A DNA stretch of 64,000 bases. Origin: Hexactinellida sp. DTS-2022 (lineage: Eukaryota; Porifera; Hexactinellida). A program made the translations under genes and the position numbers. The stretch lies in the NCBI GenBank assembly GCA_028753945.1, contig JAPNXP010000007.1:992001-1056000 (forward strand). Reading direction: 5' to 3'. Within the stretch, counting starts at the first letter, position 1; each line of letters starts with the position of its first letter. This document shows positions 9,566 through 39,055 of this stretch, piece by piece. The notes below the pieces were generated by a model. That model ran no database searches and was not told where the DNA came from. It saw only the letters and a program-made list of their open reading frames with translations.

Positions 9566-9776
9566 ATCGCATTGATAACTACCCAAATTTCTCAAGTAAC
9601 TTTGTTTATAGAAAAATTTCAATTAATGTTAAATTAAATGATTTGTCATTTAGTTCCATATTCACATACCTGACTGTAACTCGGAATGTATATGAGCTAG
9701 AGAGTCAAACTTTGTTTTGAATGATAGCGAATAAAGAGAGTAAATAGATTACAAGCTAAGGAAGATATTAAGTTTT

Positions 9777-9900
9777 TACTGTGCCGACTATACTATAGTA
9801 TAGTGGCCCAGTATTGGTCTTAGTGCTTTGGTTTTTTTACTGTGCCGACTATACTATAGTATAGTGGCCCAGTTCTAATCTTACTGCCTTGGATTTTGTT
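9777..9900. repeat. Palindromic VNTR, 2 copies
   Basis: Two copies of a ~62-bp unit made of a T-run, ACTGTGCCGAC, the perfect 18-bp palindrome ACTATACTATAGTATAGT, GGCCCAGT and a variable GGTCTTAGTGCCTTGG-like tail. They lie directly before a CTCCGTGTCG segment, as in the two other clusters. Confidence 0.85.
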
Positions 9901-15627: not shown

Positions 15628-15760
15628 ATAGATAAAAAATCTAAGATTACAGCTGTGCCAACATCATGTCCAATGGAGGCACTATATTTTGGTGGTTGGT
15701 TGATTAATAGTGCCTCCAAAAGAAAATGCTGTCGGCACAGCTGTAATTTTAGATTTTTTA
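15628..15760. mobile_element. Small foldback element (TTACAGCTGTGCCGACAGC family)
   Basis: The arms AAAAAATCTAAGATTACAGC and its complement flank TGTGCC..CATGT..GGAGGCACTAT and the mirrored sequence, with a short spacer TTTTGGTGGTTGGTTGATTA. Same family as 40985-41116 and as the hairpin inside each long array unit. Confidence 0.82.
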
Positions 15761-16190
15761 CTGTGCCGACTATACTATAGTATAGTGGCCCAGTTCTAAT
15801 CTTACTGCCTTGGATGTTTTTACTGTGCCGACTATACTATAGTATAGTGGCCCAGTTCTAATCTTACTGCCTTGGATTTTTACTGTGCCGACTATACTAT
15901 AGTATAGTGGCCCAGTATTGGTCTTAGTGCTTTGGTTGTTTTTTTACTGTGCCGACTATACTATAGTATAGTGGCCCAGTATTGGTCTTAGTGCCTTGGA
16001 TTTTTTCACTGTGCCGACTATACTATAGTATAGTGGCCCAGTATTGGTCTTAGTGCCTTGGATTTTTTACTGTGCCGACTATACTATAGTATAGTGGCCC
16101 AGTATTGGTCTTAGTGCCTTGGATTTTTTACTGTGCCGACTATACTATAGTATAGTGGCCCAGTATTGGTCTTAGTGCTTTGGTTTGTTT
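15760..16190. repeat. Palindromic VNTR, 7 copies
   Basis: Seven tandem copies with period 60-65 bp. Each has a variable T-run, ACTGTGCCGAC, the perfect 18-bp palindrome ACTATACTATAGTATAGT and GGCCCAGT. The tail exists in two versions: TATTGGTCTTAGTGCCTTGG and TCTAATCTTACTGCCTTGG. Variation in the length of the T-run accounts for most period differences. Confidence 0.92.
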
Positions 16191-16194
16191 TTTT

Positions 16195-17810
16195 CTCCGT
16201 GTCGCCTCCCCAGGCTAAACCATAAGTGCTAGAGCTCTGAGATTTTCAGGATAGGTGTCTGGTTGTTGATTAATGTGCACTTCGTGGCCTGATTTTTCAA
16301 TTTCGACTTGAGAAATTTTTTAACGGGACTTTTAGCTTTTTTTGTCCCACAAGAAAATAAATGCAATAACAAATTTCTTTTTTTAATCATTAGTATCAGA
16401 AAAGTATTTTGCAACTGATAGCTCTTCACGATTTTTTTAATCCGTCCTCATTTTCCTGAGAATTAGGCTCAAAGTTGCCACAATTCACCCTTAACTTTCT
16501 AAAATCGTAAATTCATTAATATTCAATTATGCAATTATTTCGTGGTTTCGATGAAGATCTACTATTTATGAATAATTCAATTAGATTCAGTGTTATTTCG
16601 ATTCAAGTTATTGTTGATATTATAATTACAATAAAGAATTATAGTACGTATATGAATAATTAATTTACATTCAATAGCTATTACTATACAAATCAATTTC
16701 TGATATCATAGTTACAATAAAGTATTATATTGTAAATGAATAATCCAATTTGATTCAATAGCTGCTACTATATAAATCGATTTCTAATACATAGTCGTAT
16801 TAAAGTTTTCTCCTATATGAAAATTCAATTTCACTCAACAGTTATTCAATTTCAGAACTATTTATGATATTCAAACAATGGATTAATGAGATGGAATTTC
16901 TATTTGTTTAAATATTTGTCTATGTGTGTGCTTGGTGCCCGAAATGTATTGGAGTGTAAGGGGGGGTTTATAACGCATTTATTTCAGTTGTAATAATTAT
17001 ATTGATTTAACTTGTGAGATCGAATAGGCTTCGATTTTCTAATTGAAAATTATGATTATATATTCCATAAAACGACAAATTATGTGAATACATTTCCTTC
17101 TTCAAGAACACTCTTAAACAATATTAATATACTGCATGTAATTAATTATAATTAACTCAGTCTATAATTGACATAATATTATATAGATGCTTCCAATTTG
17201 TTTATTAGGGAACATGGAGTGTGCGGAATTGAAATTTGGCCCAAATTAATTTTACTTAGTAAATTCAAATTGGTGTTAAATTATTAATAATTTAATTAAT
17301 ATTTATACTAATTAGCTAAATATCATTAATCTCAGAGATGATGCAAGATAGAAACAAACTTACAATTTATCAATTGATCCTTATGGCACATAACACCTCT
17401 ACAAATGTGTCTTGACACCTTGAGGTGATGATGACATCGTAAAAAAATTAGTTTTCACAATTTTGTGAAATATATAATTCGAATGGGTTGGTTGGTGGTG
17501 GGTGATCACCCAACACGCACATAGAAAATGCTGAGTCATCACCTATTATTTTCCACTGAAACTTGAATATCTTTGAGATGAAGTGAGCTAAAATGAAACT
17601 TCCAACTCACTAAGGGTCGTTACATTCCGAAACACCTATCTGAATTACTCTAACACCTTCATAGTGATGATGACATGTCGAAAAAAATCCAAAATTGCAC
17701 CTGTGCAGCAGCATGTTCCATTGGAGGCACTATTAATAAACCACCACAAAAATATAGTGCCACCAGAGGAACATGCGTCGGCACAGGCTGCAATTTTGGA
17801 TTTTTTTTTT
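16195..17810. repeat. Long array unit, type B (~1.62 kb)
   Basis: Begins CTCCGTGTCGCCTCCCC. The first ~780 bp are homologous to the type A units; the middle (about 16980-17480) is specific to type B and includes GTGGGTGATCACCCAACACG. It ends in the foldback segment around 17680-17805 (GCATGTTCCATTGGAGGCAC, mirrored). A second type B middle and end is at 38220-39055. Confidence 0.85.
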
Positions 17811-17812
17811 TT

Positions 17813-18019
17813 ACTGTGCCGACTATACTATAGTATAGTGGCCCAGTATTGGTCTTAGTGCCTTGGATGTTTTTTTGTTTTTTTACTGTGCCGACTATAC
17901 TATAGTATAGTGGCCCAGTTCTAATCTCACTGCCTTGGATGTTTTTACTGTGCCGACTATACTATAGTATAGTGGCCCAGTATTGGTCTTAGTGCTTTGG
18001 TTTGTTTGTTTTTTTTTTT
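17813..18019. repeat. Palindromic VNTR, 3 copies
   Basis: Three further copies of the ~62-bp unit with the ACTATACTATAGTATAGT palindrome and both tail versions, then a T-run leading into the next CTCCGTGTCG. Confidence 0.88.
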
Positions 18020-21000
18020 CTCCGTGTCGCCTCCCCAGGCTAAACCATAAGTGCTAGAGCTCTGAGATTTTCAGAATAGGTGTCTGGTTGTTGATTAATG
18101 TGCACTTCGTGGCCTGATTTTTCAATTTCGACTTGAGAAAATTTTTAACGGGACTTTTAGCTTTTTTTGTCCCACAAGAAAATAAATGCATTAACAAGAA
18201 ATTTTTTAGAATCATTAGTATCAGAAAAGTATTTTGCAACTGATAGCTCTTCACGATCTTTTTACTCCGTCCTCATTTTCCTGAGAATTAGGCTCAAAGT
18301 TGCCACAATTCACCCTTAACTTTCTAAAATCGTAAATTCATTAATATTCAATTATGCAATTATTTCGTGGTTTCGATGAATAACTATATTTATGAATAAT
18401 TCAATTGATTCAGTGTTATTTCGATTCAAGTTATTGTTGATATTATAATCACAATAAAGAATTCTAGTATATATGAATAACTAATTTACATTCAATAGCT
18501 ATTACTATACAAATTTATTTCTGATATCATAGTTACAATAATTTATTCTATTTATATGAATAATTCAATTTGATTCATTAGTATATAAATCGATTTCTAA
18601 TACAATAGTTGTATTAAAGTTTTCTCCTATATGAAAATTCAATTTCACTCAACAGTTATTCAATTTCAGAACGATTTCTGATATTCAAACAATGGATTAA
18701 TGAGATGGGATATCTATTTGTATAAATATTTGTCTATTTGTGTGCTTGGTGCCCGAAATGTATTAGAGTGTAAGGGGGGGGGGGGGGGGGGTTATAAATC
18801 ATTTACGTATAATGGAAATATAAACTTAATCCCATATGTCATTCAAAGTAAGCGAGTATGCTGATTTCAATTTTAAAACGATGACTGATATACAAACAAT
18901 GGATTAATGAAATGGAATATCTATTAAATGACTATTCGTCTGTGTGCGTGTTTGGTGGTCGAATTGTATTAGAGTGATAGGGGGTTATAATAGGAATATA
19001 AACTAGATCCCTTTTGTCATTCTAAGTAAACAAGTATGCTGATTTCCAATTTTAAACAGTATATTAATATTCAATGGATTAAAGCAATTTAAATTAAATT
19101 GGAAATTTGTTTACTTAACTCAACTCAACTCACATTGCTAAAATAATTAACTATTTATATCATTTATTATCTATACATAATGAATGAATGACATTAAACC
19201 CAAGATGGTTCAAGATAGAAATAATTTAAAATCAACAATGGTTCCTTTATCCCGTACAACTTGTTAAATGAGACTAAACACTATGAGGCGTTCATGACAT
19301 GGCGAAAAAAATCCAAAATTGCAGCTGTGCCGACAGCGTGTTCCTTTGGAGGCACTATCAATAAACCACCACCAAAATATAGTGCCACAAAAGGAACATG
19401 CGTCGGCACAGCTGCAATTTTGGATTTTTTTTTTCTCCGTGTCGCCTCCCCAGGCTAAACCATAAGTGCTAGAGCTCTGAGATTTTCAGAATAGGTGTCT
19501 GGTTGTTGATTAATGTGCACTTCGTGGCCTGATTTTTCAATTTCGACTTGTGAAAATTTTTAACGGGACTTTTAGCTTTTTTTGTCCCACAAGAAAATAA
19601 ATGCAATAACAAGAAAATTTTTAGAATCATTAGTATCAGAAAAGTATTTTGCAACTGATAGCTCTTCACGATCTTTTTAATCCGTCCTCATTTTCCTGAG
19701 AATTAGGCTCAAAGTTGCCACAATTGACCCTTAACTTTCTAAAATCGTAAATTCATTAATATTCAATTATGCAATTATTTCGTGGTTTCGATGAATAACT
19801 ACTATTTAATATTTATGAATAATTCAATTAGATTCAGTGTTATTTCGATTCAAGTTATTGTTGATATTATAATCACAATAAAGAATTCTAGTATATATGA
19901 ATAACTAATTTACATTCAATAGCTATTACTATACAAATCTATTTCTGATATCATAGTTACAATAATTTATTCTATTTATATGAATAATTCAATTTGATTC
20001 ATTAGTATATAAATCGATTTCTAATACAATAGTTGTATTAAAGTTTTCTCCTATATGAAAATTCAATTTCACTCAACAGTTATTCAATTTAAGAACGATT
20101 TCTGATATTCAAACAATGGATTAATGAGATGGGATATCTATTTGTATAAATATTTGTCTATTTGTGTGCTTGGTGCCCGAAATGTATTAGAGTGTAAGGG
20201 GGGGGGTTTATAAAGCATTTACGTATAATGGAAATATAAACTTAATCCCATATGTCATTCAAAGTAAGCGAGTATGCTGATTTCAATTTTAAAACGATGA
20301 CTGATATACAAACAATGGATTAATGAAATGGAATATCTATTAAATGACTATTCGTCTGTGTGCGTGTTTGGTGGTCGAATTGTATTAGAGTGATAGGGGG
20401 TTATAATAGGAATATAAACTAGATCCCTTTTGTCATTCTAAGTAAACAAGTATGCTGATTTCCAATTTTAAACAGTATATTAATATTCAATGGATTAAAG
20501 CAAATTAAATTAAATTGGAAATTTGTTTACTTAACTCAACTCAACTCACATTGCTAAAATAATTAACTATTTATATCATTTATTATCTATACATAATGAA
20601 TGAATGGCATTAAACCCAAGATGGTTCAAGATAGAAATAATTTAAAATCAACAATGGTTCCTTTGTCCCGTACAACTTGTTAAATGAGACTAAACACTAT
20701 GAGGTGTTCATGACATGGCGAAAAAAATCCAAAATTGCAGCTGTGCCACAAGCGTGTTCCTTTGGAGGCACTATCAATAAACCACCACCAAAATATAGTG
20801 CCACAAAAGGAACATGCGTCGGCACAGCTGCAATTTTGGATTTTTTTTTTTTTTTTTTTTTTCTCCGTGTCGCCTCCCCAGGCTAAACCATAAGTGCTAG
20901 AGCTCTGAGATTTTCAGAATAGGTGTCTGGTTGTTGATTAATGTGCACTTCGTGGCCTGATTTTTCAATTTCGACTTGTGAAATTTTTTAACGGGACTTT

Positions 21001-24000
21001 TAGCTTTTTTTGTCCCACAAGAAAATAAATGCAATAACAAAAAAATTTTTAGAATCATTAGTATCAGAAAAGTATTTTGCAACTGATAGCTCTTCACGAT
21101 CTTTTTAATCCGTCCTCATTTTCCTGAGAATTAGGCTCAAAGTTGCCACAATTGACCCTTAACTTTCTAAAATCGTAAATTCATTAATATTCAATTATGC
21201 AATTATTTCGTGGTTTCGATGAATAACTACTATTTAATATTTATGAATAATTCAATTAGATTCAGTGTTATTTCGATTCAAGTTATTGTTGATATTATAA
21301 TCACAATAAAGAATTCTAGTATATATGAATAACTAATTTACATTCAATAGCTATTACTATACAAATCTATTTCTGATATCATAGTTCCAATAATTTATTC
21401 TATTTATATGAATAATTCAATTTGATTCATTAGTATATAAATCGATTTCTAATACAATAGTTGTATTAAAGTTTTCTCCTATATGAAAATTCAATTTCAC
21501 TCAACAGTTATTCAATTTCAGAACGATTTCTGATATTCAAACAATGGATTAATGAGATGGGATATCTATTTGTATAAATATTTGTCTATTTGTGTGCTTG
21601 GTGCCCGAAATGTATTAGAGTGTAAGGGGGGGGGGTTTATAAAGCATTTACGTATAATGGAAATATAAACTTAATCCCATATGTCATTCAAAGTAAGCGA
21701 GTATGCTGATTTCAATTTTAAAACGATGACTGATATACAAACAATGGATTAATGAAATGGAATATCTATTAAATGACTATTCGTCTGTGTGCGTGTTTGG
21801 TGGTCGAATTGTATTAGAGTGATAGGGGGTTATAATAGGAATATAAACTAGATCCCTTTTGTCATTCTAAGTAAACAAGTATGCTGATTTCCAATTTTAA
21901 ACAGTATATTAATATTCAATGGATTAAAGCAAATTAAATTAAATTGGAAATTTGTTTACTCAACTCAACTCAACTCACATTGCTAAAATAATTAACTATT
22001 TATATCATTTATTATCTATACATAATGAATGAATGGCATTAAACCCAAGATGGTTCAAGATAGAAATAATTTAAAATCAACAATGGTTCCTTTGTCCCGT
22101 ACAACTTGTTAATGAGACTAAACACTATGAGGTGTTCATGACATGGCGAAAAAAATCCAAAATTGCAGCTGTGCCACAAGCGTGTTCCTTTGGAGGCACT
22201 ATCAATAAACCACCACCAAAATATAGTGCCACAAAAGGAACATGCGTCGGCACAGCTGCAATTTTGGATTTTTTTTTTTTCTCCGTGTCGCCTCCCCAGG
22301 CTAAACCATAAGTGCTAGAGCTCTGAGATTTTCAGGATAGGTGTCTGGTTGTTGATTAATGTGCACTTCGTGGCCTGATTTTTCAATTTCGACTTGGGAA
22401 AATTTTTAACGGGACTTTTAGCTTTTTTTGTCCCTTAAGAAAATAAAAGCAATAACAAGAAATCTTTTTGAATCATTAGTATCAGAAAAGTATTTTGCAA
22501 CTGATAGCTCTTCACGATTTTTTTAATCCGTCCTCATTTTCCTGAGAATTAGGCTCAAAGTTGCCACAATTGACCCTTAACTTTCTAAAATCGTAAATTC
22601 ATTAATATTCAATTATGCAATTATTTCGTGGTTTCGATGAATAACTACTATTTAATATTTATGAATAATTCAATTAGATTCAGTGTTATTTCGATTCAAG
22701 TTATTGTTGATATTATAATCACAATAAAGAATTCTAGTATATATGAATAACTAATTTACATTCAATAGCTATTACTATACAAATCTATTTCTGATATCAT
22801 AGTTACAATAATTTATTCTATTTATATGAATAATTCAATTTGATTCATTAGTATATAAATCGATTTCTAATACAATAGTTGTATTAAAGTTTTCTCCTAT
22901 ATGAAAATTCAATTTCACTCAACAGTTATTCAATTTCAGAACGATTTCTGATATTCAAACAATGGATTAATGAGATGGGATATCTATTTGTATAAATATT
23001 TGTCTATTTGTGTGCTTGGTGCCCGAAATGTATTAGAGTGTAAGGGGGGGGGTTTATAAAGCATTTACGTATAATGGAAATATAAACTTAATCCCATATG
23101 TCATTCAAAGTAAGCGAGTATGCTGATTTCAATTTTAAAACGATGACTGATATACAAACAATGGATTAATGAAATGGAATATCTATTAAATGACTATTCG
23201 TCTGTGTGCGTGTTTGGTGGTCGAATTGTATTAGAGTGATAGGGGGTTATAATAGGAATATAAACTAGATCCCTTTTGTCATTCTAAGTAAACAAGTATG
23301 CTGATTTCCAATTTTAAACAGTATATTAATATTTAATGGATTAAAGCAAATTAAATTAAATTGGAAATTTGTTTACTTAACTCAACTCAACTCACATTGC
23401 TAAAATAATTAACTATTTATATCATTTATTATCTATACATAATGAATGAATGGCATTAAACCCAAGATGGTTCAAGATAGAAATAATTTAAAATCAACAA
23501 TGGTTCCTTTGTCCCGTACAACTTGTTAAATGAGACTAAACACTATGAGGTGTTCATGACATGGCGAAAAAAATCCAAAATTGCAGCTGTGCCACAAGCG
23601 TGTTCCTTTGGAGGCACTATCAATAAACCACCACCAAAATATAGTGCCACAAAAGGAACATGCGTCGGCACAGCTGCAATTTTGGATTTTATTTTTTTTC
23701 TCCGTGTCGCCTCCCCAGGCTAAACCATAAGTGCTAGAGCTATGAGATTTTCAGGATAGGTGTCTGGTTGTTGATTAATGTGCACTTCGTGGCCTGATTT
23801 TTCAATTTCGACTTGGGAAAATTTTTAACGGGACTTTTAGCTTTTTTTGTCCCACAAGAAAATAAATGCAATAACAAGAAATTTTTTAGAATCATTAGTA
23901 TCAGAAAAGTATTTTGAAACTGATAGCTCTTCACGATTTTATTAATCCGTCCTCATTTTCCTGAGAATTGGGCTCAAAGTTGCCACAATTCACCCTTAAC

Positions 24001-24540
24001 TTTATAAAATTGTAAACTCATTAATATTCAATTATGCAATAATTTCGTGGTTTCGATGAAGATCTACTATTTATGAATAATTCAATTGATTCAGTGTTAT
24101 TTCGATTCAAGTTATTGTTGATATTATAATCACAATAAAGAATTCTAGTATATATGAATAATTAATTTACATTCAATAGCTATTACTATACAAATCAATT
24201 TCTGATATCATAGTTACAATAAAGTATTATATTGTAAATGAATAATTCAATTTGATTCAATAGCTGCTACTATATAAATCGATTTCTAATACATAGTTGT
24301 ATTAAAGTTTTCTCCTATATGAAAATTCAATTTCACTCAACAGTTATTCAATTTCAGAACGATTTCTGATATTCAAACAATGGATTAATGAGATGGAATA
24401 TCTATTTATATAAATATTCGTCTGTGTCTGTTGGTGCCCGAAATGTATTGAGTGATAGGGGAGTTTATACCGCATTTATAATGGGAATATAAACTTAATC
24501 CCTTTTGTCATTCTAAGTAAACAAGTATGCTGATTTTCAA
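18020..24540. repeat. Tandem array of ~1.42-kb units (type A), about 4.6 copies
   Basis: Unit starts (CTCCGTGTCGC) fall at 18020, 19435, 20863, 22281 and 23700, giving spacings of 1415, 1428, 1418 and 1419 bp. Copies are nearly identical, differing mainly in T-run and G-run lengths. Each holds a T-run, a region with a reverse-strand 66-codon frame, AT-rich sequence, TGTAAGGGGGG-type G-runs, two GTAAGCGAGTATGCTGATTT or GTAAACAAGTATGCTGATTT motifs, and a terminal foldback (TGCCACAAGCGTGTTCCTTT mirrored by GGAACATGCGTCGGCACAGC). The last copy decays after about 24540. The near-identity argues for recent amplification or homogenisation. No protein family was recognised. Confidence 0.93.
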
Positions 24541-24735
24541 TTTTCGAAACTATATGTATTATGTTTCATATTGTTGACGTTTACAAATAGGTAAACAAAT
24601 TGCTTCGATTCAGAATGAACCTATTTATCTTAAGATTGTTATAATGGGTAAAGAACTATGTTGATAACTAGTAATTTATTGTGTACGGATATTGTGTATG
24701 TTAACATTTATTGTTGTTGTTCATAAAACCCATAG

Positions 24736-25442: not shown

Positions 25443-25529
25443 GTAAGCACATACACTTTTCTTATACCTTGTTAATTAATATTTAATTTTTAGATCGGAT
25501 ATTTAATAAATAGATTTACTATATAGTAC

Positions 25530-26127
25530 CGTGACCTACGTTATAATAAGGCCTGTTCACTAGTGTTAAATTTTGGACCATGGATGTCGTTTTACCCTCG
25601 TCTGGCTAGGAATGTAAAATTGAAACTGAAAGTTAATTGAATTTCAATTGAAAGTGAAAGTGAAAGTGGGGTTTTTCTATTTATACCTTTTACCCCAAGC
25701 CAGCCGAGGGTTAATTAAGTCCATTGATTCTTTTTAGAATAAATGTTATAGTAAGAGATAATTAACCAAGTAGTAATCCAGAAGAAGTAAAATATTATTG
25801 GGCTTAATAGCAAGCACATTTAAGTAAATGAATGTTGCAATAGTACAAAATATTAAAGAAAACATGAAAGTGAATATAAGTTTTTAGCAAATAAACATTT
25901 GAAGAACAATAACAACTAATTGGGTTTAACTTTCTTTATTTTTCGAGAATTTTCTTCATGAACCGACTGCAAAGTTTGCAAGGCATTCATATTTTTTGTT
26001 CTGGATTACTACTTGGTTAATTATCTCTGACTATAACATTTATTGTCAAAGAATCAATGGGCTTAAACGACATCCATGGTCCAAAATTTAACACTAGTGA
26101 ACAGGCCTTATTATAACGTAGGTCACG
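25530..26127. mobile_element. Foldback element in the presumed Helentron 5' intron
   Basis: TIRs of about 60 bp start CGTGACCTACGTTATAATAA and also contain CTAGTGTTAAATTTTGGACC. ATAGTAC lies directly before the left end and directly after the right end, a probable 7-bp target duplication. The interior is AT-rich and non-coding. Confidence 0.85.
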
Positions 26128-26133
26128 ATAGTA

Positions 26134-26233: not shown

Positions 26234-26262
26234 TACTTACTTTTTAAAATTTAATTCTAGAA

Positions 26263-29200
26263 ATGATATCTCTTGAACTATGGAGATCGAGGATTGGTGG
26301 CTGGGCTGGAAAATCCAGAACAGATTTGCCTGATGAGGATACCCAGTCTTTCCAGGCCAGTTCAACAGAGGAACACCTACTACTGGCGATATCATGCTAC
26401 TTGATAGCTGTTATTGTCCAGATATTATTGATGATTGGTGGTGTGGAATTGAATCCTGGCCCGTTAGGCAAGAGGTATAATTCGCCAACTACTGATAATA
26501 CTTCACCGGAAGATTCGGAACTAGGTAAGTAATGTATTTAGATAATTATGACTTTAGAGTTGTAGCTATAAAATATGTCTACTTGGTTTAAACATAGTAG
26601 TTGATAGATTTAATTATTATTAACAATTTAATACAATCATAGAAACTATGGATGTTTCAGAAATTGACCCACTAGTGATTGACTCTCGAGAGTTAAATAA
26701 AATGGAGACACAAGTATGTTTACAGGGAGATCATGCACTACCTGAATCTACGTGTTCTCAAGGGACTCAACATACTCCCATTTCTTCGCAGAACGTACCC
26801 ATCGCCTTGCTTGAGCTTTCAAGTCAATGCTCTTCTGACAGTGGCACTCCTGATAAGACACCTATCTCTACTCCTAAGATTAAGAAAAGGAAAGGCCATA
26901 GAGCTATAAGAGATAGGAAGAAAAAGGCTATTAAAAGGCGGAGATTGGATTCAGAATATTGTGATGCTGAAAATGAACATAGACTCCATGCTTTTAAAGA
27001 AAGTATTGAAAACCCTGAGATACGTGCTAAACATAATCACGATCAACTCAAGAATGTAACAAGGAGGCTAAACGATCCAATTAAGCGGGAGAAACATAAT
27101 GAACGCCAGTATGCTCTTATTACAGAGAAACTTAAGGATCCAGCTGAGAGGGCGAAACATAATGAACGCCAGTATGCTCTTATTACAGAGAAACGTAAGG
27201 ATCCAGCTGAGAGGGCGAAACATAATGAACGCCAGTATGCTCTTATTACAGAGAAACGTAAGGATCCAGCTGAGAGGGCGAAACATAATGAACGCCAGCT
27301 GAAGCTTGTTACCGAGAAACGGATAGACTCTAAAGAGAAAATGAAACACAACCTAGCTGAGATAAATAGATATAGTACTATGCGAGGTGCACTTAAGTCG
27401 GTTATTCTAAAATATCTATCTGAGATAGCTGAAGGCCCCACTTTTGTTTGTTCTTGCTGTGGATGTCTCCATTTCAGGAAAACAGTTGTGATTCTTAAGA
27501 GAGAAAAACTTGTTTCAACGAATGTGTGCAAAGATGATTTCGTCAAACAGGTAATTATATTATATTCCATTGGTATTATTATCAATATCTTTTAATATAA
27601 TAAGATTTAATTAGAAATTATTTATACATTAAGTAGGTATTAAATAAATTTTCGGTTAATCTTATTAATTTTAGAGAATACTTATCCACCGATCATCGGC
27701 GTTTGTATTAAAAAAGCTCGCTACTTTCTACCGATGATGTTTTTTATCAACATAAAAAAACAATCGGTAGAAAGTAGCGAGCTTTTTTAATACAAACGCC
27801 GATGATCGGTGGATAAGTATTCTCATAATTTTAATATCTATAATTATTTCTATTAGGTTTTTCTCTATGAGACAGTCAACATTGAGTATGTGTGTAAGAC
27901 CTGTCTCATTTATATCAAAGATGGCAGAGTACCTAAGATAGCGTTATGCCGTGGCTTAACTTTTCCCGAGATCCCTCCTGAGCTATCTGGTCTGACTGTG
28001 ATAGAACAGAGACTGGTATCTCCCAGACACGAGTTCATGAACATCAGATCTCTGGGCAGGGAGAGACAGCACGGACTGCATGGCATGGTTGTTAATGTTC
28101 CCATAGACGTAGATAAGACTGTTAATCAGTTACCTAGGACATTCTTACAGTCCCAAACCATTCAGTTACAATTGTTTCGTAAGTTATCGTTCGCGAAACC
28201 TTATTTATACGAAACGATAAGACCGAATGTAGTGTTAGAAGCAGCTCTCTATCTCTCTACCACTGAGCTCTTCAAGCTAGAGAAGGTAGTAGTTTCAGAG
28301 AACTGGGTTAATTCTGTTCCACGAACTGGTTCTGGTACTGGTAATGTTAATTTTATTGTTAACCCGAATGACGAGCCTTCTGATATAGTTGTAGATGAAG
28401 AGGAACAGGGTTCTGAGACCGTTCCTGGTATCGAGGAGCTCTTCGATAACCTTGAGGAGTTGTTGAAGGAGATTGACGATTGGGATGAGACCAAGGATGA
28501 TCTCCCCATTAACCCTGGTTCTCTAGACACACTGCTGCTGTCTAATGAGAACCTGCTAATGAAATTGGCTCCTGGAGAAGGGAGGAAGCCTCTGTACTTA
28601 ACCACGGATAAGTTTATAGAGGAACTAGCTTACCCTTGTGTGTTTGCTGGTCAATGCAGAGACTTACCTGAGGACCTGTCTATCCTCAAGAAATCAAAGT
28701 CTGACATTTTGAGGTTAGTTATATAGTTTTATAATGCGTACTCATAATCTCAATCTTTTACTATAAAGGTTATTTTCCTACTGAACCATGGATATTTATG
28801 AAAGTAAATTATTGTATATATCCATGGTCCAATAATAGATTAACTATTTCAATTACATTTAGCTAAGTTCCAAATTACTTCCCTCTTTAGATATGATAGG
28901 AGATGTAGCACTAACATCCCTCTGCTGCTTCTTAAGTACAAACTGGTGGAGACAGCTAGTCTTAACAGTGCTATCAGTATTTGTATGAGAAAAACAAAGT
29001 CTACAGACGGACAGGCTATAACTGTGTCTGATGTTCTCAATGACGACAATCTGGAGAGAATGGTTGAGGACGATGAGGCTTTTAAGTTCTTAAAGCAAGT
29101 CCGGTCTACCCCCGCATTCTGGCAACAGAAACAGAGAGAACTGATGTCTATGATAAGACAGCTGGGATGTCCCACGTTCTTTCTAACTCTGTCTGCTGCT

Positions 29201-32200
29201 GAGACTAAATGGCTAGAGCTACTCAGGATACTGAAACAGATCCTAGATGACGTTAAGCTGTCTGTTGAAGAGGTTCTGGAATTCCAGTGGAGCGAGAGAG
29301 CAGATCTGATAAGGAGAGATCCTGTCACTTGTGCTAGGTACTTTGATCATCGCTCCAAGGAGCTATTTAAGGTGCTTCGATCAGAGGTTAGTCCCCTTGG
29401 TAAATTGACTGATTACTATTTGAGAATAGAATTTCAACAAAGAGGGTCCCCACATGTGCATTCGTTACTATGGGTACAAGATGCCCCTAAGTATGACCAC
29501 ACTCCGTTAAATGAAGTAATTGAATTTATTGATCGTACTATCTCAGTTAAATTGCCAGATGAGACTAGTATAATAACTGAGGATGATATTAAGTTACAGC
29601 GACATAAGCACACGAATACGTGTTATAAGAAAAAGTCGTTTCGTCGTTGTAGGTTTGGTATTCCGTACCCTCCAATGGTATCAACTAAAATTCTAGAACC
29701 ATTGGAGTTTGCTGCCAGTACGGCTACCAGAGAGGAGATAGCTGCTAATGCAGCTCTTAAGGAAACTGCTAAGAAAATATATGCTCTAATTGACACCTAT
29801 GATAAGAGCGATACTGACTTAAGTAGTATAACGATACAGGATTTCTTTAATGAACTCTATGTTACCGAAGAGCAATACATAACTGCATTGAGATCTTGTA
29901 TAAATAGATCTACTATATTTCTGAAACGAAATTTGAATGAGATACGAATCAATGCTCATAATAAGACTATATTGCATCTCTGGAAAGCTAATATGGATCT
30001 CCAATACATATTGGATCCATATGCTTGTGCTGTTTACGTTATTTCGTATATCGGAAAGTCCCAGCGTGGGATGTCTAAGTTATTGAGAGATGCCTTGATG
30101 CATCTAAAAGCAGGCAATGCCACTATTAAAGAGAGACTGAGGGGAATTGCTTACAAATTTCAGAGCTGTAGCGAGGTATCAGCTCAGGAGGTTTCTTACC
30201 ATCTCCTCAGTCTCCCTCTCTCTAAGTGCAGTAGAGCTAATGTCTACATTAACACCAATCCTGCAAATAAACGGGTTAGGATACTCAAGTCCAAACCCAT
30301 TCTAATGGGTATGGAACAGGATTCTGTAGATATACTTCTGTCAGGTCTAATTGAGCACTACATGCAACGACCTGACGAGTTAGAGGAAACATGCCTAGCA
30401 GAGTTTGCCGCTTGGTATGAATTCCAATCTAGTAAGCGAATATGTAAAACTAATCCCGACTTTGAGGAGGAAAATATGGAAGACGAGGCAGCGTCCCTGG
30501 TCGATAATCCGAGACTATTTCCTCTCAAAGATACAGGTTTTATGAGACTTCGTCGTAAAGCTAAAATTATCCGATTTAGAAGGTATAGTATTATACAGGA
30601 CGAAGTTAACTTTTATAGAGAACAGTTGATGCTGTTTGTATCTTGGAGAACTGACACTAATGATACTGACAATATCGACTTTAAGTCTATGTATGCTACC
30701 CATCTTAATCTGATTACTCAGAATAGGGAACTGTTTGAAAGTAGAGACCAATCCTCAATTGACGAGGCTATTAATATCCTTGAGGACTTGGACCCTGATG
30801 AGTTAAACTTTGATGGGATTGCTAATGAGGAAATAATGAACAATGAGAGTGCAGTGGTTATTGAGGATACTGACTTCCAGGTAGACAATCCAGGGAACGA
30901 CAATCCCTGGACTGTAGATCCCAATAGTGACCCCAGAACTAAATCTGTAGGAGGATTCTTCAATATTCCTAACATGAATACTGAGGAGGTATTCCTTCAG
31001 ATGTGTCGCAGCTTGAACAAGGTTCAGCGTACTGTATTCCTCCACACTCTGCACTGCTTTAAGACTATGAAGCAGCTGCCTATGTATCTCTATATAGGAG
31101 GAGGTGCTGGTGTTGGTAAGAGTACGGTGGTACGAGTCTTATACGAAGGTTTGGTAAGATTTATGAATTCACTACCTGGCACTAAGCCTGATGCTATTAA
31201 GGTACTGCTAACAGCTCCTACAGGTAAAGCTGCTTTTAATATCCGTGGTATGACACTACATTCTGCATTTGCTTTACCTGTAACGGAGTTTAACGGCGAA
31301 ATGCCCAACTTATCTTCTGATGTTTGTAACACATTAAGAAGTAAGCTGAGCTGTTTGAAAGTTGTTATAATAGATGAAATATCCATGGTTGGTAGTAAAA
31401 TAATGTCTCAGGTTAATAACCGACTAAAAGCTATTATGGATAATTCACTGGACTTTGGTGGTGTCTCCATCATCTGTGTTGGAGATTTCCATCAGTTACG
31501 TCCGGTTATGGATAGCTATGTATTTCAAATTTCAGTCTCCAGTGCCAATAATTACGACGGACTGGTTGGTCCGTACCTTTGGGAAAAATTCTCATATATA
31601 GAACTGACGGAAATAATGAGACAAAAAGATGATCAGAAGTTTGCATTAGCATTGAACAATTTTGCTAACTGTTGTTTAACTGAGGATGATATAAATCTAT
31701 TTACTAGTAGAATTATTGCGAAAGATTCTTATGAGAATCTTCCCATAAAATCTATCCATCTGTTTAGTACTAACGCCAGTGTTAATGCTCATAACGAAAT
31801 TGTTCTCAATGCATTAACCACTGAAGGTTTTAGATTTATAGCTATTGATTCTTTAGTAGGAGACAATGCTGGAGGTATAACTGACAATCTGAGTAACCTT
31901 ATTAAACACCTAAAGGTATGTGACACCCAGGGACTACCCTATGAGCTCTTCTTGAAGCTGGGCGCTAGATACCTCATGACAGTGAATAACGACATACAAG
32001 ATGGTCTGGTTAATGGAGCTACTGGCCTCTTGAAGAAACTGGTGTATGGTACCAAGAGCGATTCTCTGGAACGAGTTCCCTGTATCCTCTGGATCGAGTT
32101 TGACGATCCTACAGTAGGAAAGGATAAACGAGCAAAGTCTCAGCATCGTTATCTTAGAGATAGCGCAATTCCAAGGAACTGGACTCCTATTGGATTGGAA

Positions 32201-33973
32201 ACACGACGTTTCCAGAGAGGGAAAGGCGTGAGTTCCTATAAGATAGTTAGGAAGCAGTTTCCTTTCATAGTAGCTGAAGCTCTTACAATTCATAAGAGTC
32301 AAGGCGATACTTACGATTGTGTTGTAGTCCATATAGAAGTACGTATGCTACGTAATGCGTTATACACCGCGCTCAGTAGGGCTAAATCTGCATCTGGTCT
32401 GTTTGTAGTTGGTAATCTAAAACTAACTAATAAGTTATCTGAAAAAGATCCTGTCCACTTAGAACTTAAGCGGTTAAGAGAACACTGTGCTATTATCTTG
32501 TCTATTCCACTAACTAGTCCAGACATCTATGTACACAATGTTCGTTCATTGAACAAACACTGGGAAGATTTGACCGTAAATCCATTCATAGTACAATCCC
32601 AAGTGTTAATCTTGCAGGAGACAATGACTTTAGCCTCTGATAACTTTAATATCCCTGGTCATACTCTCATTGGTAGAATTGATAGTAGTGCTAGACTTCC
32701 TGGTTCTGGTACACACATATACTCCCGAAATACAGCTGTGTGTAAGTTTTTAGTTGCACACTCAAGCTGTCATAATGGCGCTAGGATTGAGATATTGATT
32801 ATCCAGTTCTATGATCCCATGATAATCGATAAGCCTGTCGTGGTAATGTCTATATACCGATCACCACAATCCCCAATGAAGGAATTTTACTCGGAACTTG
32901 ATCAGGCTCTATGTAAAATTGATAACTCTGATCCCTTGATAATTACTGGGGACTTCAATATAGATTTATTTGCCCGCTCTCCTGAGAGAGATACCTTGAT
33001 AAAGTATTTTTCAAATAAAGGGATAATGCAATCTTTGTCTGGAGTATCCACTAACTATGGATCTCAGCTGGATTGTGTATTCACTAAAAACTTGATCTGT
33101 TCATCTGGTTTTTATGAATCATACTTTAGTGATCATAAGCCAATGTTGATTTCTCTTGGAACTGGTGTTAGTGACTGTAGTAATGTGGATAATAAACCAA
33201 TTATATCACATGCTACTAGTCAACATGATATTATTGATATTGACGAAATATCAAATGATAATACAACCAAGGATATTCAGGATGTAATTGTTAGTCATGT
33301 ACACATCCCTACTCCTGTGCTGCCTCCCGTAAATACATATGACAATGCTAATTCATTCACATTTGCGATGAGACAGTCATTAGCAGCATGCATTAATCTA
33401 CAGAGAATACCTTTAAGACCGACTAACTATACTGGGTCTAGAGTCTCAGCTACTGGTTATTATGATTTTATGCGTACAAATGTAAGAGATCGGTTTAATT
33501 TCAGGATAGTTCCTGTAATAAGTGATGGGAATTGTTTCTTTAGAACACTGTCTCACATAATTTTCGGTGATGAAAGTGAGCATCATAATATCCGTGGTTC
33601 TCTAATAGACACATTTGAACAAAGTCCTTATGTTGCTGCTTTCTGTGGCATCCAACGCTATAATGCAGTTGCTATTCAGCAACACTTGAGTAATATGAAG
33701 CGTAATTACTCTTGGGGAACTGTGAATGAACTTATTATCTTTGGAATCTTAGCTGGTATTAATGTTAGTTACATTAATGCTGTTGATACAGACCCTTCTA
33801 AGTGGGTAATGACTGATGTGTCTACTGAGAATACTCTCGGTAAACCAAATGATCCAATATATGGAGGGAGACACCTTGTTGTGTTGTTTCATAGTATTAA
33901 TTTTTCTGGTTCTTGTAGTAACCATTATGATGTAGTATATCCTTTGAATAATGCTGCTAGTAGTTCTTATTAG
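26263..33973 (+). CDS. Autonomous Helentron Rep/helicase/endonuclease/OTU polyprotein
   Basis: Four exons join in phase: 26263-26524, 26643-27550, 27857-28713 and 28891-33973, with GT/AG at each junction, giving about 2,369 aa. Exon 1 ends in a hydrophobic stretch (about residues 47-64) followed by GGVELNPGP, a 2A-like motif. Exon 2 carries about four 21-aa repeats (NERQYALITEKRKDPAERAK type) and CxCCxC. Exon 3 begins with another CxxC and has the PEIPPELSGLT-type region usual upstream of Helitron Rep. Exon 4 contains GSPHVHSLLW (HUH, His864/His866), two tyrosines at about 1058 and 1062 in AVYVISYIGK (Rep Y2), a PIF1/RecD helicase (GGGAGVGKST at about 1412; VVIIDEISMVG at about 1502), an AP-type endonuclease (about 1885-2105, with ITGDFNID and SDHKPM) and an OTU protease (about 2202-2360, with DGNCFFR and NHYDVV). 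This order defines Helentrons, which move as rolling-circle transposons. No frame break was found, so it may be active. Confidence 0.93.
27674..27824. mobile_element. MITE in Helentron intron 2
   Basis: The arms GAGAATACTTATCCACCGAT and its complement give a long hairpin (also CATCGGCGTTTGTATTAAAA and GCTCGCTACTTTCTACCGAT). It lies wholly between the donor at 27551 and the acceptor at 27856. A homologous copy is at 54989-55133. Confidence 0.88.
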
Positions 33974-34089
33974 GTGGAGATTTCCCTAATGATACTATAC
34001 TTATTTTGCATGTGTAAGTAAGTGTGTAGAAAGACCAGGTGTCGAAAGACCGGGCTTGGTAAGTGTATGTAGAATGACCTGGCTTGTCA

Positions 34090-34705
34090 AGGGTAGTCAC
34101 ACTTTAATTAGTGTCCAACCTAAGTCTTCGAGACAACTTGCAGGATCAAGTGTGTAACACTTTAAATAGTGTTATACTGCAGTACGTAGCCACCGTTATC
34201 AGCAAATCCCTGATAGTAAGCAGTGGCTTAGATAGGGATTTCCTGGTGACCAGGGACCTCATAATGAGTTTCGAATTAGATAGTTTATTAGGTATGTACT
34301 TTGGTAATTCCGCTTTACATACGTGGCTACGTGTGGCTGCACTGAGTCATAGATTCACAGTGTAGAATGGCCTGGCTTGATACCAAGCGGGTAACTTGGC
34401 TAAACACTAAGTTATGCCTGAGCCATATAACATCTCTGTAAAGTACAAAAGATCTGTATCTGGTTGCAAGTGGTTAGCACTTTAATGATGTTTTCCCGTG
34501 TCTGCGTACTTTACAGAACAAGTGTGTTACACTTACATTCTTACAACTGGCGAAAATATTACCTAATACATATGCATACGTAGGTATGTTAAATTACAAA
34601 CTACATCCAGTTGGCAGGTTGATAAGTGTTTCACTGAGTCTTAACACCAGAGGCTTGTAGTATTGTGAGTTGACTACAAGTGTAACACTTTAGGTGTTAC
34701 GTAGA
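34090..34705 (+). other. Hairpin-rich 3' region of the Helentron
   Basis: Directly after the stop, several short stem-loops share a CACTTTA core: 34099-34114 (ACACT/AGTGT), 34154-34177 (GTAACACT/AGTGTTAT) and 34682-34700 (GTAACAC/GTGTTAC). AGAATGACCTGGCTTG and AGAATGGCCTGGCTTGATAC are also repeated (34070 and 34364 areas). No ORF here is convincing. Repeated subterminal hairpins are common in rolling-circle transposons, but a role is inferred only. Confidence 0.5.
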
Positions 34706-34835
34706 GTCTTATAACACACTTACTTTTATTGCAGTTTTGTTCCATTTTTTAATTTACTATTATTTTCCTTTCTTTATACGTATGTATATGCTAATAATAT
34801 AAATGTTTGTGTTTGTGTGCGTATGTCTTGTATTC

Positions 34836-34895
34836 TTCTAGGTATAGTTCTATTCCGAACTACTGATGAGACTTATGGAGAGTCGAAACCTAGAA
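34836..34895 (+). ncRNA. Type III hammerhead ribozyme
   Basis: All hammerhead rules are met. Stem III: 836-843 (TTCTAGGT) pairs with 888-895 (ACCTAGAA), 8 bp, open-ended. H17 is A844, so cleavage is predicted after 844 (a GUA triplet). Stem I: 845-850 pairs with 857-862 (6 bp) around loop 851-856 TATTCC. Catalytic box CTGATGA is at 863-869. Stem II: GACT 870-873 pairs with AGTC 881-884 around loop TATGGAG. GAA is at 885-887, followed by A15.1 (888) pairing with U16.1 (843). TCC in loop 1 and GGA in loop 2 could form the tertiary contact that speeds cleavage. It is on the Helentron sense strand, about 860 nt after the stop codon. Numbers are offsets from 34000. Confidence 0.92.
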
Positions 34896-35589
34896 TTTTC
34901 CATATAATTATAACATAAAATGTACTTAACGACTATGTGATATCATTAATTACTTCCACATGAAATCAATTGAACTGATTTAAATTTAACCGACGATCCC
35001 TTCCTCCATGCGTCAAAATGTAGTAAAAATTTCCGACTTCTTTATTCATACTTACTTAGTTTGTTGAGGTTATAGTAAATACACAGTTTGTACCATTTTG
35101 AGATTTTACTATTGTTTTAGAATCCTTTTAAGCATTAGAATCGAAAAAAAGTTAAATAATCGATAATAATCAATAATTTATAAGGTTTGATTTACTTAAA
35201 AGGATTATGAAATTGTACTTAATTTAACATTACATGATAGTAAACTAAGCACTCACTAAAATACTATTATTATTAGTATTTACCACCAATAATAAAGTGG
35301 TAGTGAATAATTATTTCAATAATTCGGACTTAGAGTTTAGCTATGTGATTAAAAAATGGTCTCTTCACATAAGTTTGGTTCACATGATTTTAATTTGAAC
35401 AATGATGCTTGAATTTGGTTACAATGTAATTACAACATAGTGTGGTTATAATACTGATACTGAATTTAGGATTGTGTTGTCTTATAATATGATGCAACAA
35501 TTTCGCAATAATTATGTGATGCCAAATGGAAATAACTACTTTATAATAAGTAAATTTGAACAAATTAACTTTTCGTTTATCATTAGATT

Positions 35590-35790
35590 CTATGGATATT
35601 TCCTATTTCAGAAATTGACCCAACATCCTTTCAAAATGAATTAACTTAACTAAATAAAGGACATACAAGTATGTTTACTGGGAAATCAAGAAGCTACTGA
35701 ATTAATCTACGTATTCTCAAGGGACTCAACATACTCCCATTTCTTCGCAGAATGTACCCATCGCCTTGCTGAGGTTTCAAGACAGTGGAT
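35590..35790 (+). pseudogene. Degraded copy of Helentron exon 2 start
   Basis: The stretch from CTATGGATATTTCC through TTTCAGAAATTGACCCA to CATACTCCCATTTCTTCGCAGAA and ACCCATCGCCTTGCT matches 26645-26822 of the intact gene, with substitutions, deletions and in-frame stops. It shows that a second, now decayed, Helentron copy or an internal rearrangement once lay here. Confidence 0.85.
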
Positions 35791-35799
35791 GAAGTAAAA

Positions 35800-37429
35800 G
35801 TATTAAATCTAAATATATTGTTTCAACTTGTAATAATTAGATTTATTTAACTTGTTAAATCTTACTCTATTGATTCAACTCGCGATAATTATATTGATTT
35901 AACTTACAAATTCCGGCTGGCTTCTATTTAATTGTAGTATTAGTATACAATGGATTAAATAAAATAAAATATTATAAGGTATTTGTAGACTTAATTAACT
36001 CAACTCACCGTGGATAACATTGCTAAAATAATTAACTAATAATATAATGTATAATTATGTATTATCAATACATAATGAATGAATGGCATTAAACTCAAGA
36101 TGGTCAACATAGAATATATAAACTTCAAATTCAACAATCATTCCTTTGTCCCGTAACAACTTGTTAAATGAGTCTAAACACCATGTGTCGTTCATGACAT
36201 GACGAAAAAAAATCCAAAATTGCACCTGTGCAGACAGCATGTTCCATTGGCGGCACTATTAATACACGACCATCAAAATATAGTGCCACCAAAGGAACAT
36301 GCGTCGGCACAGGCTGCAATTTTGGATTTTCAATTATGCAATTATTTCGTGGTTTCGATGAATAACTACTATTTAATATTTATGAATAATTCAATTAGAT
36401 TCAGTGTTATTTCGATTCAAGTTATTGTTGATATTATAATCACAATAAAGAATTCTAGTATATATGAATAACTAATTTACATTCAATAGCTATTACTATA
36501 CAAATCTATTTCTGATATCATAGTTACAATAATTTATTCTATTTATATGAATAATTCAATTTGATTCATTAGTATATAAATCGATTTCTAATACAATAGT
36601 TGTATTAAAGTTTTCTCCTATATGAAAATTCAATTTCACTCAACAGTTATTCAATTTAAGAACGATTTCTGATATTCAAACAATGGATTAATGAGATGGG
36701 ATATCTATTTGTATAAATATTTGTCTATTTGTGTGCTTGGTGCCCGAAATGTATTAGAGTGTAAGGGGGGGGGTTTATAAAGCATTTACGTATAATGGAA
36801 ATATAAACTTAATCCCATATGTCATTCAAAGTAAGCGAGTATGCTGATTTCAATTTTAAAACGATGACTGATATACAAACAATGGATTAATGAAATGGAA
36901 TATCTATTAAATGACTATTCGTCTGTGTGCGTGTTTGGTGGTCGAATTGTATTAGAGTGATAGGGGGTTATAATAGGAATATAAACTAGATCCCTTTTGT
37001 CATTCTAAGTAAACAAGTATGCTGATTTCCAATTTTAAACAGTATATTAATATTCAATGGATTAAAGCAAATTAAATTAAATTGGAAATTTGTTTACTTA
37101 ACTCAACTCAACTCACATTGCTAAAATAATTAACTATTTATATCATTTATTATCTATACATAATGAATGAATGGCATTAAACCCAAGATGGTTCAAGATA
37201 GAAATAATTTAAAATCAACAATGGTTCCTTTGTCCCGTACAACTTGTTAAATGAGACTAAACACTATGAGGTGTTCATGACATGGCGAAAAAAATCCAAA
37301 ATTGCAGCTGTGCCACAAGCGTGTTCCTTTGGAGGCACTATCAATAAACCACCACCAAAATATAGTGCCACAAAAGGAACATGCGTCGGCACAGCTGCAA
37401 TTTTGGATTTTTTTTTTTTTTTTTTTTTT
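35800..37429. repeat. Array units resume: partial unit plus type A tail
   Basis: 35800-36330 resembles the last part of a unit and ends in the foldback (36200-36330). It then joins CAATTATGCAATTATTTCGTGG directly, so the ~330-bp segment from the T-run/CTCCGTGTCG to CATTAATATT is absent at this junction. 36330-37429 is nearly identical to the type A units at 18-24 kb. Confidence 0.88.
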
Positions 37430-39055
37430 CTCCGTGTCGCCTCCCCAGGCTAAACCATAAGTGCTAGAGCTCTGAGATTTTCAGAATAGGTGTCTGGTTG
37501 TTGATTAATGTGCACTTCGTGGCCTGATTTTTCAATTTCGACTTGTGAAATTTTTTAACGGGACTTTTAGCTTTTTTTGTCCCACAAGAAAATAAATGCA
37601 ATAACAAGAAAATTTTTAGAATCATTAGTATCAGAAAAGTATTTTGCAACTGATAGCTCTTCACGATCTTTTTAATCCGTCCTCATTTTCCTGAGAATTA
37701 GGCTCAAAGTTGCCACAATTGACCCTTAACTTTCTAAAATCGTAAATTCATTAATATTCAATTATGCAATTATTTCGTGGTTTCGATGAATAACTACTAT
37801 TTAATATTTATGAATAATTCAATTAGATTCAGTGTTATTTCGATTCAAGTTATTGTTGATATTATAATCACAATAAAGAATTCTAGTATATATGAATAAC
37901 TAATTTACATTCAATAGCTATTACTATACAAATCTATTTCTGATATCATAGTTACAATAAAGTATTATATTGTAAATGAATACGTAATTCAATTTGATTC
38001 AATAGCTGCTACTATATAAATCGATTTCTAATACTTAGTTGTATTAAAGTTTTCTCCTATATGAAAATTCAATTTCACTCAACAGTTATTCAATTTCAGA
38101 ACGATTTCTGATATTCAAACAATGGATTAATGAGATGGAATATCTATTTGTATAAATATTTGTCTATGTGTGTGCTTGGTGCCCGAAATGTATTAGAGTG
38201 TAAGGGGGGTTTATAACGCATTTATTTCAAGTTGTAATAATTATATTGATTCAACTTGTGAGATCGAGTAGGCTTCGATTTTCTAATTGAAAATTATGAT
38301 TATATATTCCATAACAACGACAAATTATGTGAATATATTTCTTTCTTCAAGAATACTCTTAATCAATATTAATATACTGATGTAATTAATTATAATTAAT
38401 TAACTCAGACTATAATTGACATAATATTATATAGATGCTTCCAATTTGTTTATTAGGGATCATCGAGTGTGCGGAATTGAAATTTGGTTTCAACTTAATT
38501 TTACTTAGTAAATAGGTGTTAAATTATCAACAATATTAATAAATATTTATACTAATTAGCTAAATATTATTAATCTCAGAGATGATGCAAGATAGAAACA
38601 AACTTACAATTTATCAATTGATCCTTATGCCACATAACACCTATACAAATGTGTCTTGACACCTTGAGGTGATGATGACATCGTAAAAAAATTAGTTTTC
38701 ACAATTTTGTGAAATATATAATTCGAATGGGTTGGTTGGTGGTGGGTGATCACCCAACACGCACATAAAAAATGCTGAGTCATCACCTATTATTTTCTAC
38801 TGAAACTTGAATATCTTTGAAATGAAGTGAGCTAAAATGAAACTTCCAACTCACTAAGGGTCGTTACAATCCGAATCACTTATCTGAATTAATTTAACAC
38901 CTAAATAGTGATAATGACATTTCGAAAAAAAATCCAAAATTGCACCTTTGCGGACAGCATGTTCCATTGGAGGCACTATTAATAAACCACCACCAAAATA
39001 TAGTGCCACCAAAGGAACATGCGTAGGCACAGGCTGCAATTTTGGATTTTTTAAT
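37430..39055. repeat. Mosaic type A/type B unit
   Basis: The first ~530 bp match type A. From about 37960 (AAAGTATTATATTGTAAATG) it switches to the version seen at 10420 and 16740. 38220-39055 then follows the type B middle (GTGGGTGATCACCCAACACG) and the type B foldback end. The switch point indicates recombination or gene conversion between unit types. Confidence 0.85.

Follow-up and report, generated by a model that had tools for sequence, protein, structure and literature searches.

The window, by which we mean the whole stretch of 64,000 nucleotides analysed, contains a type III hammerhead ribozyme motif downstream of a Helentron gene and on the same strand (Table 1). The main exon frame of the gene has matches to Helitron_like_N (1.4e-28), PIF1 (4.8e-24) and Exo_endo_phos_2 (1.1e-7), and thus encodes a Rep/helicase protein with an AP-endonuclease, the combination by which a Helentron is recognised. 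These same-strand domains support the claim of the earlier note that a Helentron lies upstream. The main frame is preceded by three shorter ones, all of them open. The two nearer frames and the main frame are partly collinear with the 2,442-aa Helentron protein of contig L209, considered below. Since the frames are open and partly collinear with this protein, the gene looks intact, with short introns whose splice sites were placed by eye. The first frame ends in GVELNPGP, which we take to be a 2A-like peptide motif, and is followed by a GTAAGT splice donor upstream of the other Helentron exons.

Table 1. Features of the Helentron gene, its 3' flank and the hammerhead motif
Feature	Positions	Strand	Basis or remark
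First coding frame, ending in GVELNPGP	26248-26532	+	only its position places it in the gene
Exon frame with 63-bp coding repeats	26624-27595	+	weakly similar to the Helentron protein of L209 (E 0.006)
Exon frame with DUF6570, upstream in the same gene	27857-28726	+	open frame, partly collinear with the L209 protein
Main exon frame of the Helentron	28844-33973	+	Helitron_like_N/Rep, PIF1 helicase, endonuclease/exonuclease/phosphatase; OTU-like C-terminal stretch by eye
Structured part of the 3' flank, with arms 34016-34035 and 34706-34725	34016-34725	+	folding; plus and minus strand give similar z
Type III hammerhead ribozyme, whole motif	34836-34895	+	sequence, fold, covariance models, random-strand control, descriptor
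Stem III, 5' strand, TTCTAGGT	34836-34843	+	pairs with 34888-34895
H17 = A, predicted cleavage 34844/34845	34844	+	site deduced by hammerhead numbering
Stem-loop I, 6 bp, loop TATTCC	34845-34862	+	sequence and fold
Core box CTGATGA	34863-34869	+	sequence, descriptor
Stem-loop II, 4 bp, loop TATGGAG	34870-34884	+	GGA could pair with UCC of loop I
Core box GAA	34885-34887	+	sequence
Stem III, 3' strand, ACCTAGAA	34888-34895	+	pairs with 34836-34843
First AATAAA past the stop codon	35291-35296	+	downstream of the ribozyme
Partial repeat (79%) of the Helentron ORF1 exon start (26655-26829)	35606-35787	+	repeat search in the window

The Helentron segment is flanked by approximately 1.4-kb satellite repeats with inner 84-bp repeats (16184-24555 and 35818-39052). 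The left similarity is clear up to 24555, with short matches to 25147, and the right one starts with short matches from 35818 and is clear from 35938, so that the ribozyme lies within the segment between the two flanks. Inverted-repeat (MITE-like) insertions were observed at 25524-26133, 27663-27836 and 54980-55131. The first two seem to be intronic in the Helentron gene; the third is a further copy of the second. Tandem repeats with a unit length of 61 to 72 bp, containing the palindrome ACTATACTATAGTATAGT, occur at 9773-9897, 15752-16191 and 17801-18019. Other genes of the window encode eS1, Aha1/AHSA1 and ankyrin repeats, and there is a weak SOCS-box match (E 0.0014) below its cut-off; these genes point to a eukaryotic host, probably an animal.

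The motif, read directly from the plus strand, has the order TTCTAGGT A TAGTTC TATTCC GAACTA CTGATGA GACT TATGGAG AGTC GAA ACCTAGAA. The core CUGAUGA, GAA, the A15.1-U16.1 pair and a cleavage triplet of the NUH type, here GUA with H17 = A34844, are all present, as type III requires. In both the sequence and the predicted fold helices I and II are closed by loops and helix III is open. Stem III consists of 8 bp, the A15.1-U16.1 pair included, stem I of TAGTTC (34845-34850) paired with GAACTA (34857-34862), and stem II of GACT (34870-34873) paired with AGTC (34881-34884), that is, 4 bp, or 5 counting one G.U. Direct reading thus bears out what had been claimed previously, namely the presence of every conserved hammerhead position and perfect stems of 8, 6 and 4 bp. 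The isolated motif folds into the hammerhead shape at -17.7 kcal/mol (z -2.45), with one of 200 shuffled sequences folding as well. The complementary loops, also claimed previously, are present: UCC of loop I and GGA of loop II can form three pairs, or four with U.G. However, at least three such pairs are found in 29% of random loop pairs of 6 and 7 nt, and in five of the 32 type III descriptor matches (the window motif and 31 from viral contigs). Contact between loops I and II is suggestive only.

The covariance search proposed in the earlier note gave a match of Rfam RF00008 (Hammerhead_3) to an 80-nt piece with 35.1 bits (E 1.1e-6), below the gathering score of 48.5 bits, which is a curation cut-off and no defining trait. 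At the gathering threshold Rfam listed nothing in the whole window, and the E-value mode applied to 501 nt missed the hammerhead site, although the 80-nt piece detects it. As a control for the score, eight viral contigs chosen for type III motifs were analysed. Nine RF00008 matches were found in seven of them (none in L069), with scores of 30.2-44.6 bits; one of the nine (L084, 232-280) is type I by descriptor. As all these matches are below 48.5 bits, a score of 35.1 bits is ordinary for the class, and the gathering cut-off is not taken as excluding a hammerhead. A second covariance model, R2, was built from 15 type III motifs with the window row left out. It assigns the window motif 43.3 bits (E 6.5e-9, a rough value from a short calibration) over 87,254 bases, and the second-best site has 13.2 bits; the model with the window row included gives 53.2 bits, which is circular. 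The scores of RF00008 and R2 support the type III assignment made earlier.

A looser descriptor with stems of 5/4/4 bp matches once in the window; a Markov-1 random strand of 295.2 Mb gave no match. That the motif is an inactive chance sequence, as its single copy and an Rfam score under the curated cut-off might suggest, is hardly credible against the E-value of the independent model R2 and the empty random strand, and this explanation was rejected. The motif looks like a real type III hammerhead and is probably active. With one core mismatch allowed, the descriptor finds no second, degenerate hammerhead elsewhere in the window, nor in contigs L209 and L210, and makes a single implausible type I call inside the coding frame of contig L002. 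The exact stem I pattern has no matches in the viral contigs.

With the type III hammerheads of RF00008 (viroid-like satellites, plant LTR retrozymes, phages) the window motif shares the core, the open stem III, the 6-bp stem I with its 6-nt loop and the 4-bp stem II; typical stem and loop sizes were taken from the type III passages of PMC7936874. Unlike the usual members, it has a loop II of 7 nt rather than 4 and a possible Watson-Crick contact of the loops, and, unlike in those systems, it is situated behind a DNA transposon gene, as a single copy in the window, with no repeat or circle. The hammerheads of animal genomes and delta-like RNAs, as presented in those passages, are also of type III with possible pairing of loops I and II. 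However, in the toad and termite hammerheads helix I is longer and contains an internal loop, and stem II has 6 bp, whereas the window motif is short; no Helentron is mentioned alongside them in those passages. The possible UCC/GGA pairing is similar to that of pseudoknot hammerheads as outlined in the relevant part of Perreault et al. 2011 (PMC3088659), but the loops here provide only three pairs (four with U.G), a number reached by chance in 29% of cases. Hammerheads of Penelope-like elements, Terminons and metazoan retrozymes are likewise tied to mobile elements, whose RNA they are thought to process. Those, however, are described as type I and reside on retroelements, whereas a Helentron moves as DNA. 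The window gene has the Rep, helicase, AP-endonuclease and OTU-like domains given for Helentrons in the corresponding section of PMC4067079. That section describes no ribozyme; the window copy has one behind its gene, and its ends are without a clear boundary.

The ribozyme is sense to the Helentron gene, and its first base lies 863 nt beyond the end of the stop codon (33973), in agreement with the sense orientation and the distance of about 860 nt claimed earlier. Neither AATAAA nor ATTAAA occurs between the stop codon and the ribozyme. The stretch 34016-34725 can fold into a large branched structure with z -6.33 on the plus strand and -6.16 on the minus strand. It contains repeated short motifs TGTAGAAAGACC and CAAGTGTGTAACACTTT and long-range inverted arms. 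Its interpretation as a strand-specific RNA domain was downgraded, given the similar z of the minus strand, the controls (eight from the window; one coding control reaches z -5.05) and the unremarkable 300-nt windows inside the stretch (z -2.3 to -0.9). No exact satellite/element junction showing a TT insertion or an empty site was located in the flanks. No candidate subterminal inverted repeats or 3' hairpin stand out in these AT-rich flanks. Given the 3' end without a clear boundary and the second Helentron-derived fragment at 35606-35787, the ribozyme may belong to another element.

In fold predictions in which at least 400 nt of RNA precede the motif and none follows it, the probability of stems II and III is 0.90-0.96; with 200 nt upstream the values are 0.68-0.72. 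Addition of 60-200 nt of downstream RNA reduces them to 0.02-0.18. With flanks, the enforced ribozyme is up to 6.7 kcal/mol less stable than competing folds, compared to a baseline of approximately 2 without any flank. As the stems form with upstream RNA alone and poorly once downstream RNA is added, cutting during transcription is plausible, and later refolding with downstream RNA could protect the transcript.

We tentatively propose, rating the chances slightly below even, that the motif is a sense hammerhead in the 3'-UTR of the Helentron gene, which cuts read-through RNA and sets the end or amount of the mRNA. Helentron RNA read beyond the stop codon would fold into the hammerhead once position 34895 has been made and would self-cleave after A34844, ahead of U34845. 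Of the two products, the upstream message would lack a poly(A) tail and end in a 2',3'-cyclic phosphate, and the downstream RNA would begin with a 5'-OH. The cut would determine where the Helentron mRNA ends or how much of it there is. Here we infer the activity of the motif, transcription through it and its effect on the mRNA. The proposal is consistent with the complete core, the three perfect stems, the R2 score and the RF00008 score within the control range; with the same-strand Helentron domains and partly collinear open exons; with the lack of AATAAA and ATTAAA ahead of the ribozyme and the satellites on both sides; and with the folding of stems II and III behind upstream RNA. On the other hand, there is one copy only, contigs L209 and L210 have no hammerhead, the same stems are poorly formed in folds with downstream RNA, and the Helentron 3' end has no clear subterminal inverted repeats and is followed by a second fragment. 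In a stronger form of the proposal, which seems unlikely, a type III hammerhead would be a functional component of the 3' region in this lineage's Helentrons. Lying behind a structured stretch (here 34016-34725), it would cut the nascent RNA, leave it without poly(A) and so limit or shape transposase expression.

Other Helentrons were sought with a degenerate DNA pattern for EFQQRGxPHxH, which matched two genome contigs, versus none of the viral contigs. Both matches, in L209 (G001:C11) and L002, are Helentron genes. Their contigs are assigned to bacterial MAGs (Poribacteria, Photobacterium) and are probably contaminants of eukaryotic origin. Apart from the window, only L209, which is the complete contig of the first MAG match, offers a Helentron whose 3' flank can be read; no hammerhead was found by covariance models or descriptor in the 1,787 nt that follow its stop. 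In L002 the stop is followed by 88 nt, too few for a test of the 3' flank. L210, a 3,635-bp contig with a Helitron-like fragment only, has no hammerhead. Neither of the MAGs that contain L001 and L002 gave an RF00008 match (0 of 2); this negative is weak, as 150 of 1104 and 150 of 400 first-look candidates were scored. Rfam in E-value mode found none in L209 and L002, and the same mode had missed the window's own motif.

The hammerhead pattern is carried by at least 120 contigs. None of the 120 listed has Helentron relatives at E 1e-3, and the control matches were as expected. Peptide patterns from the Helentron gave no matches in viral contigs. The tblastn search of the Helentron protein against phage records matched 464 records, and the 20 matches listed cover the helicase part only. 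Alignment of three proteins against viral contigs yielded 235 relatives, and for the best 80 of these the matches listed are confined to query residues 632-1206; for this reason these relatives were not used. Helitron_like_N was found in one of 84 genomes of the phylum of G001, namely G001 itself. In all, L209, L210 and the 120 listed hammerhead-pattern contigs provided no second Helentron with a hammerhead, so that the association has a single copy behind it.

A passenger origin is rated almost as high as the cutting of Helentron RNA: a separate small element (retrozyme-like, another hammerhead-bearing repeat, or a single-copy genomic type III motif like those of flies and termites) could have landed behind the Helentron and have nothing to do with its biology. 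According to the relevant sections of PMC6431247 and PMC7936874, the known hammerheads of eukaryotic genomes reside mostly in retrozymes, Penelope-like elements and Terminons; the termite type III motifs treated in the latter stand alone, and a passage of PMC7761336 mentions insect elements with type III hammerheads as work in preparation. The absence of a hammerhead from the Helentron of L209 points the same way, as does the structured RNA of about 830 nt before the cut (34016-34844), comparable to the plant retrozyme circle of 600-1000 nt described in part of PMC6155905. However, neither another hammerhead nor a long terminal repeat nor a tandem copy of the motif was found in the window, and inspection by eye revealed no target-site duplication or tail. 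A retrozyme has two hammerheads, or tandem repeats or LTRs, that bound a short circle; the 64 kb contain one hammerhead and no repeat of it. As for Penelope-like elements and Terminons, which combine a reverse transcriptase with a ribozyme in terminal repeats, no RVT model was matched in the 16 frames scanned, out of 51 frames of at least 85 aa, and the ribozyme is of type III as opposed to their minimal type I.

The repeat of the ORF1 exon start, some 710 nt downstream in the same orientation, allows the motif to be read as the 5' leader or junction of a second, truncated Helentron in tandem, with its ORF1 start at 35606-35787. Head-to-tail arrays fit rolling-circle transposition, and a gapped local alignment may extend the similarity weakly up to 26394/35356. 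But upstream of 35606 BLAST detects nothing significantly similar to the 5' part of the first copy (other matches have E 0.77), and no hammerhead occurs near the 5' end of that copy, making such a tandem rather improbable. Very improbable is a palindromic 3'-end DNA of the Helentron, a subterminal repeat with a 3' hairpin that only resembles a ribozyme. In mite HINEs, as described in the pertinent section of PMC4067079, a subterminal repeat lies 38-60 bp and a palindrome 8-35 bp from the 3' end, and hairpins I and II would fit these two locations with the T run 34896-34899 as the end of the element. However, there is no matching 5' subterminal repeat, and a hairpin needs no conserved core bases, yet all are present. 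This explanation was rejected on finding no second copy of stem-loop I in the window at up to three mismatches.

If the Helentron-cutting proposal is considered against the literature, the ribozyme class is already known. That type III is best known from plants, as the earlier note had it, holds, and the passages on animals in PMC7761336 and PMC6155905 give mostly type I. But type III hammerheads are reported in the cited part of PMC7936874 for termite and dipteran genomes (including Drosophila pseudoobscura) and for two delta-like RNAs (toad named); therefore the window motif is not the first animal type III. The other statement, that no link to rolling-circle transposons is established, agrees with our search: in the literature covered, no link was found between a hammerhead or other self-cleaving ribozyme and a Helitron, Helentron or rolling-circle transposon. 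The relevant passage of PMC4918198 contrasts Helitrons with circular RNAs; PMC6431247, in the sections concerned, has hammerheads under Terminons and Helitrons separately; in the portion of PMC8969392 at hand the ribozyme term occurs in a reference title; and the hammerhead passage of PMC12477314 concerns Terminons. The main text of PMC3414825 does not mention Helitrons, and that of PMC7492417, a paper about oyster Helentrons, mentions no hammerhead or ribozyme. The context, a type III hammerhead behind a Helentron, is thus unreported within the literature searched.

Genomic hammerheads with a proposed role are mostly on retroelements, which need processed RNA. If the ribozyme does belong to a transposon moving as DNA, it would have a different use, such as trimming of the transposase message, and such transposons would be a possible source of type III hammerheads for retrozymes or viroid-like RNAs. 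If the stronger form of the proposal were true, this would be the first self-cleaving ribozyme of such a DNA transposon within the literature searched. As it stands, the motif is one more well-formed type III hammerhead, probably from an animal.

Several viral contigs contain at least three hammerhead calls each (L010, L029, L039, L053, L064, L078, L084, L103, L118). There are seven calls in L118, L029 and L064 have calls in common, and in L010 type I is mixed with type III having a 13-bp stem III.
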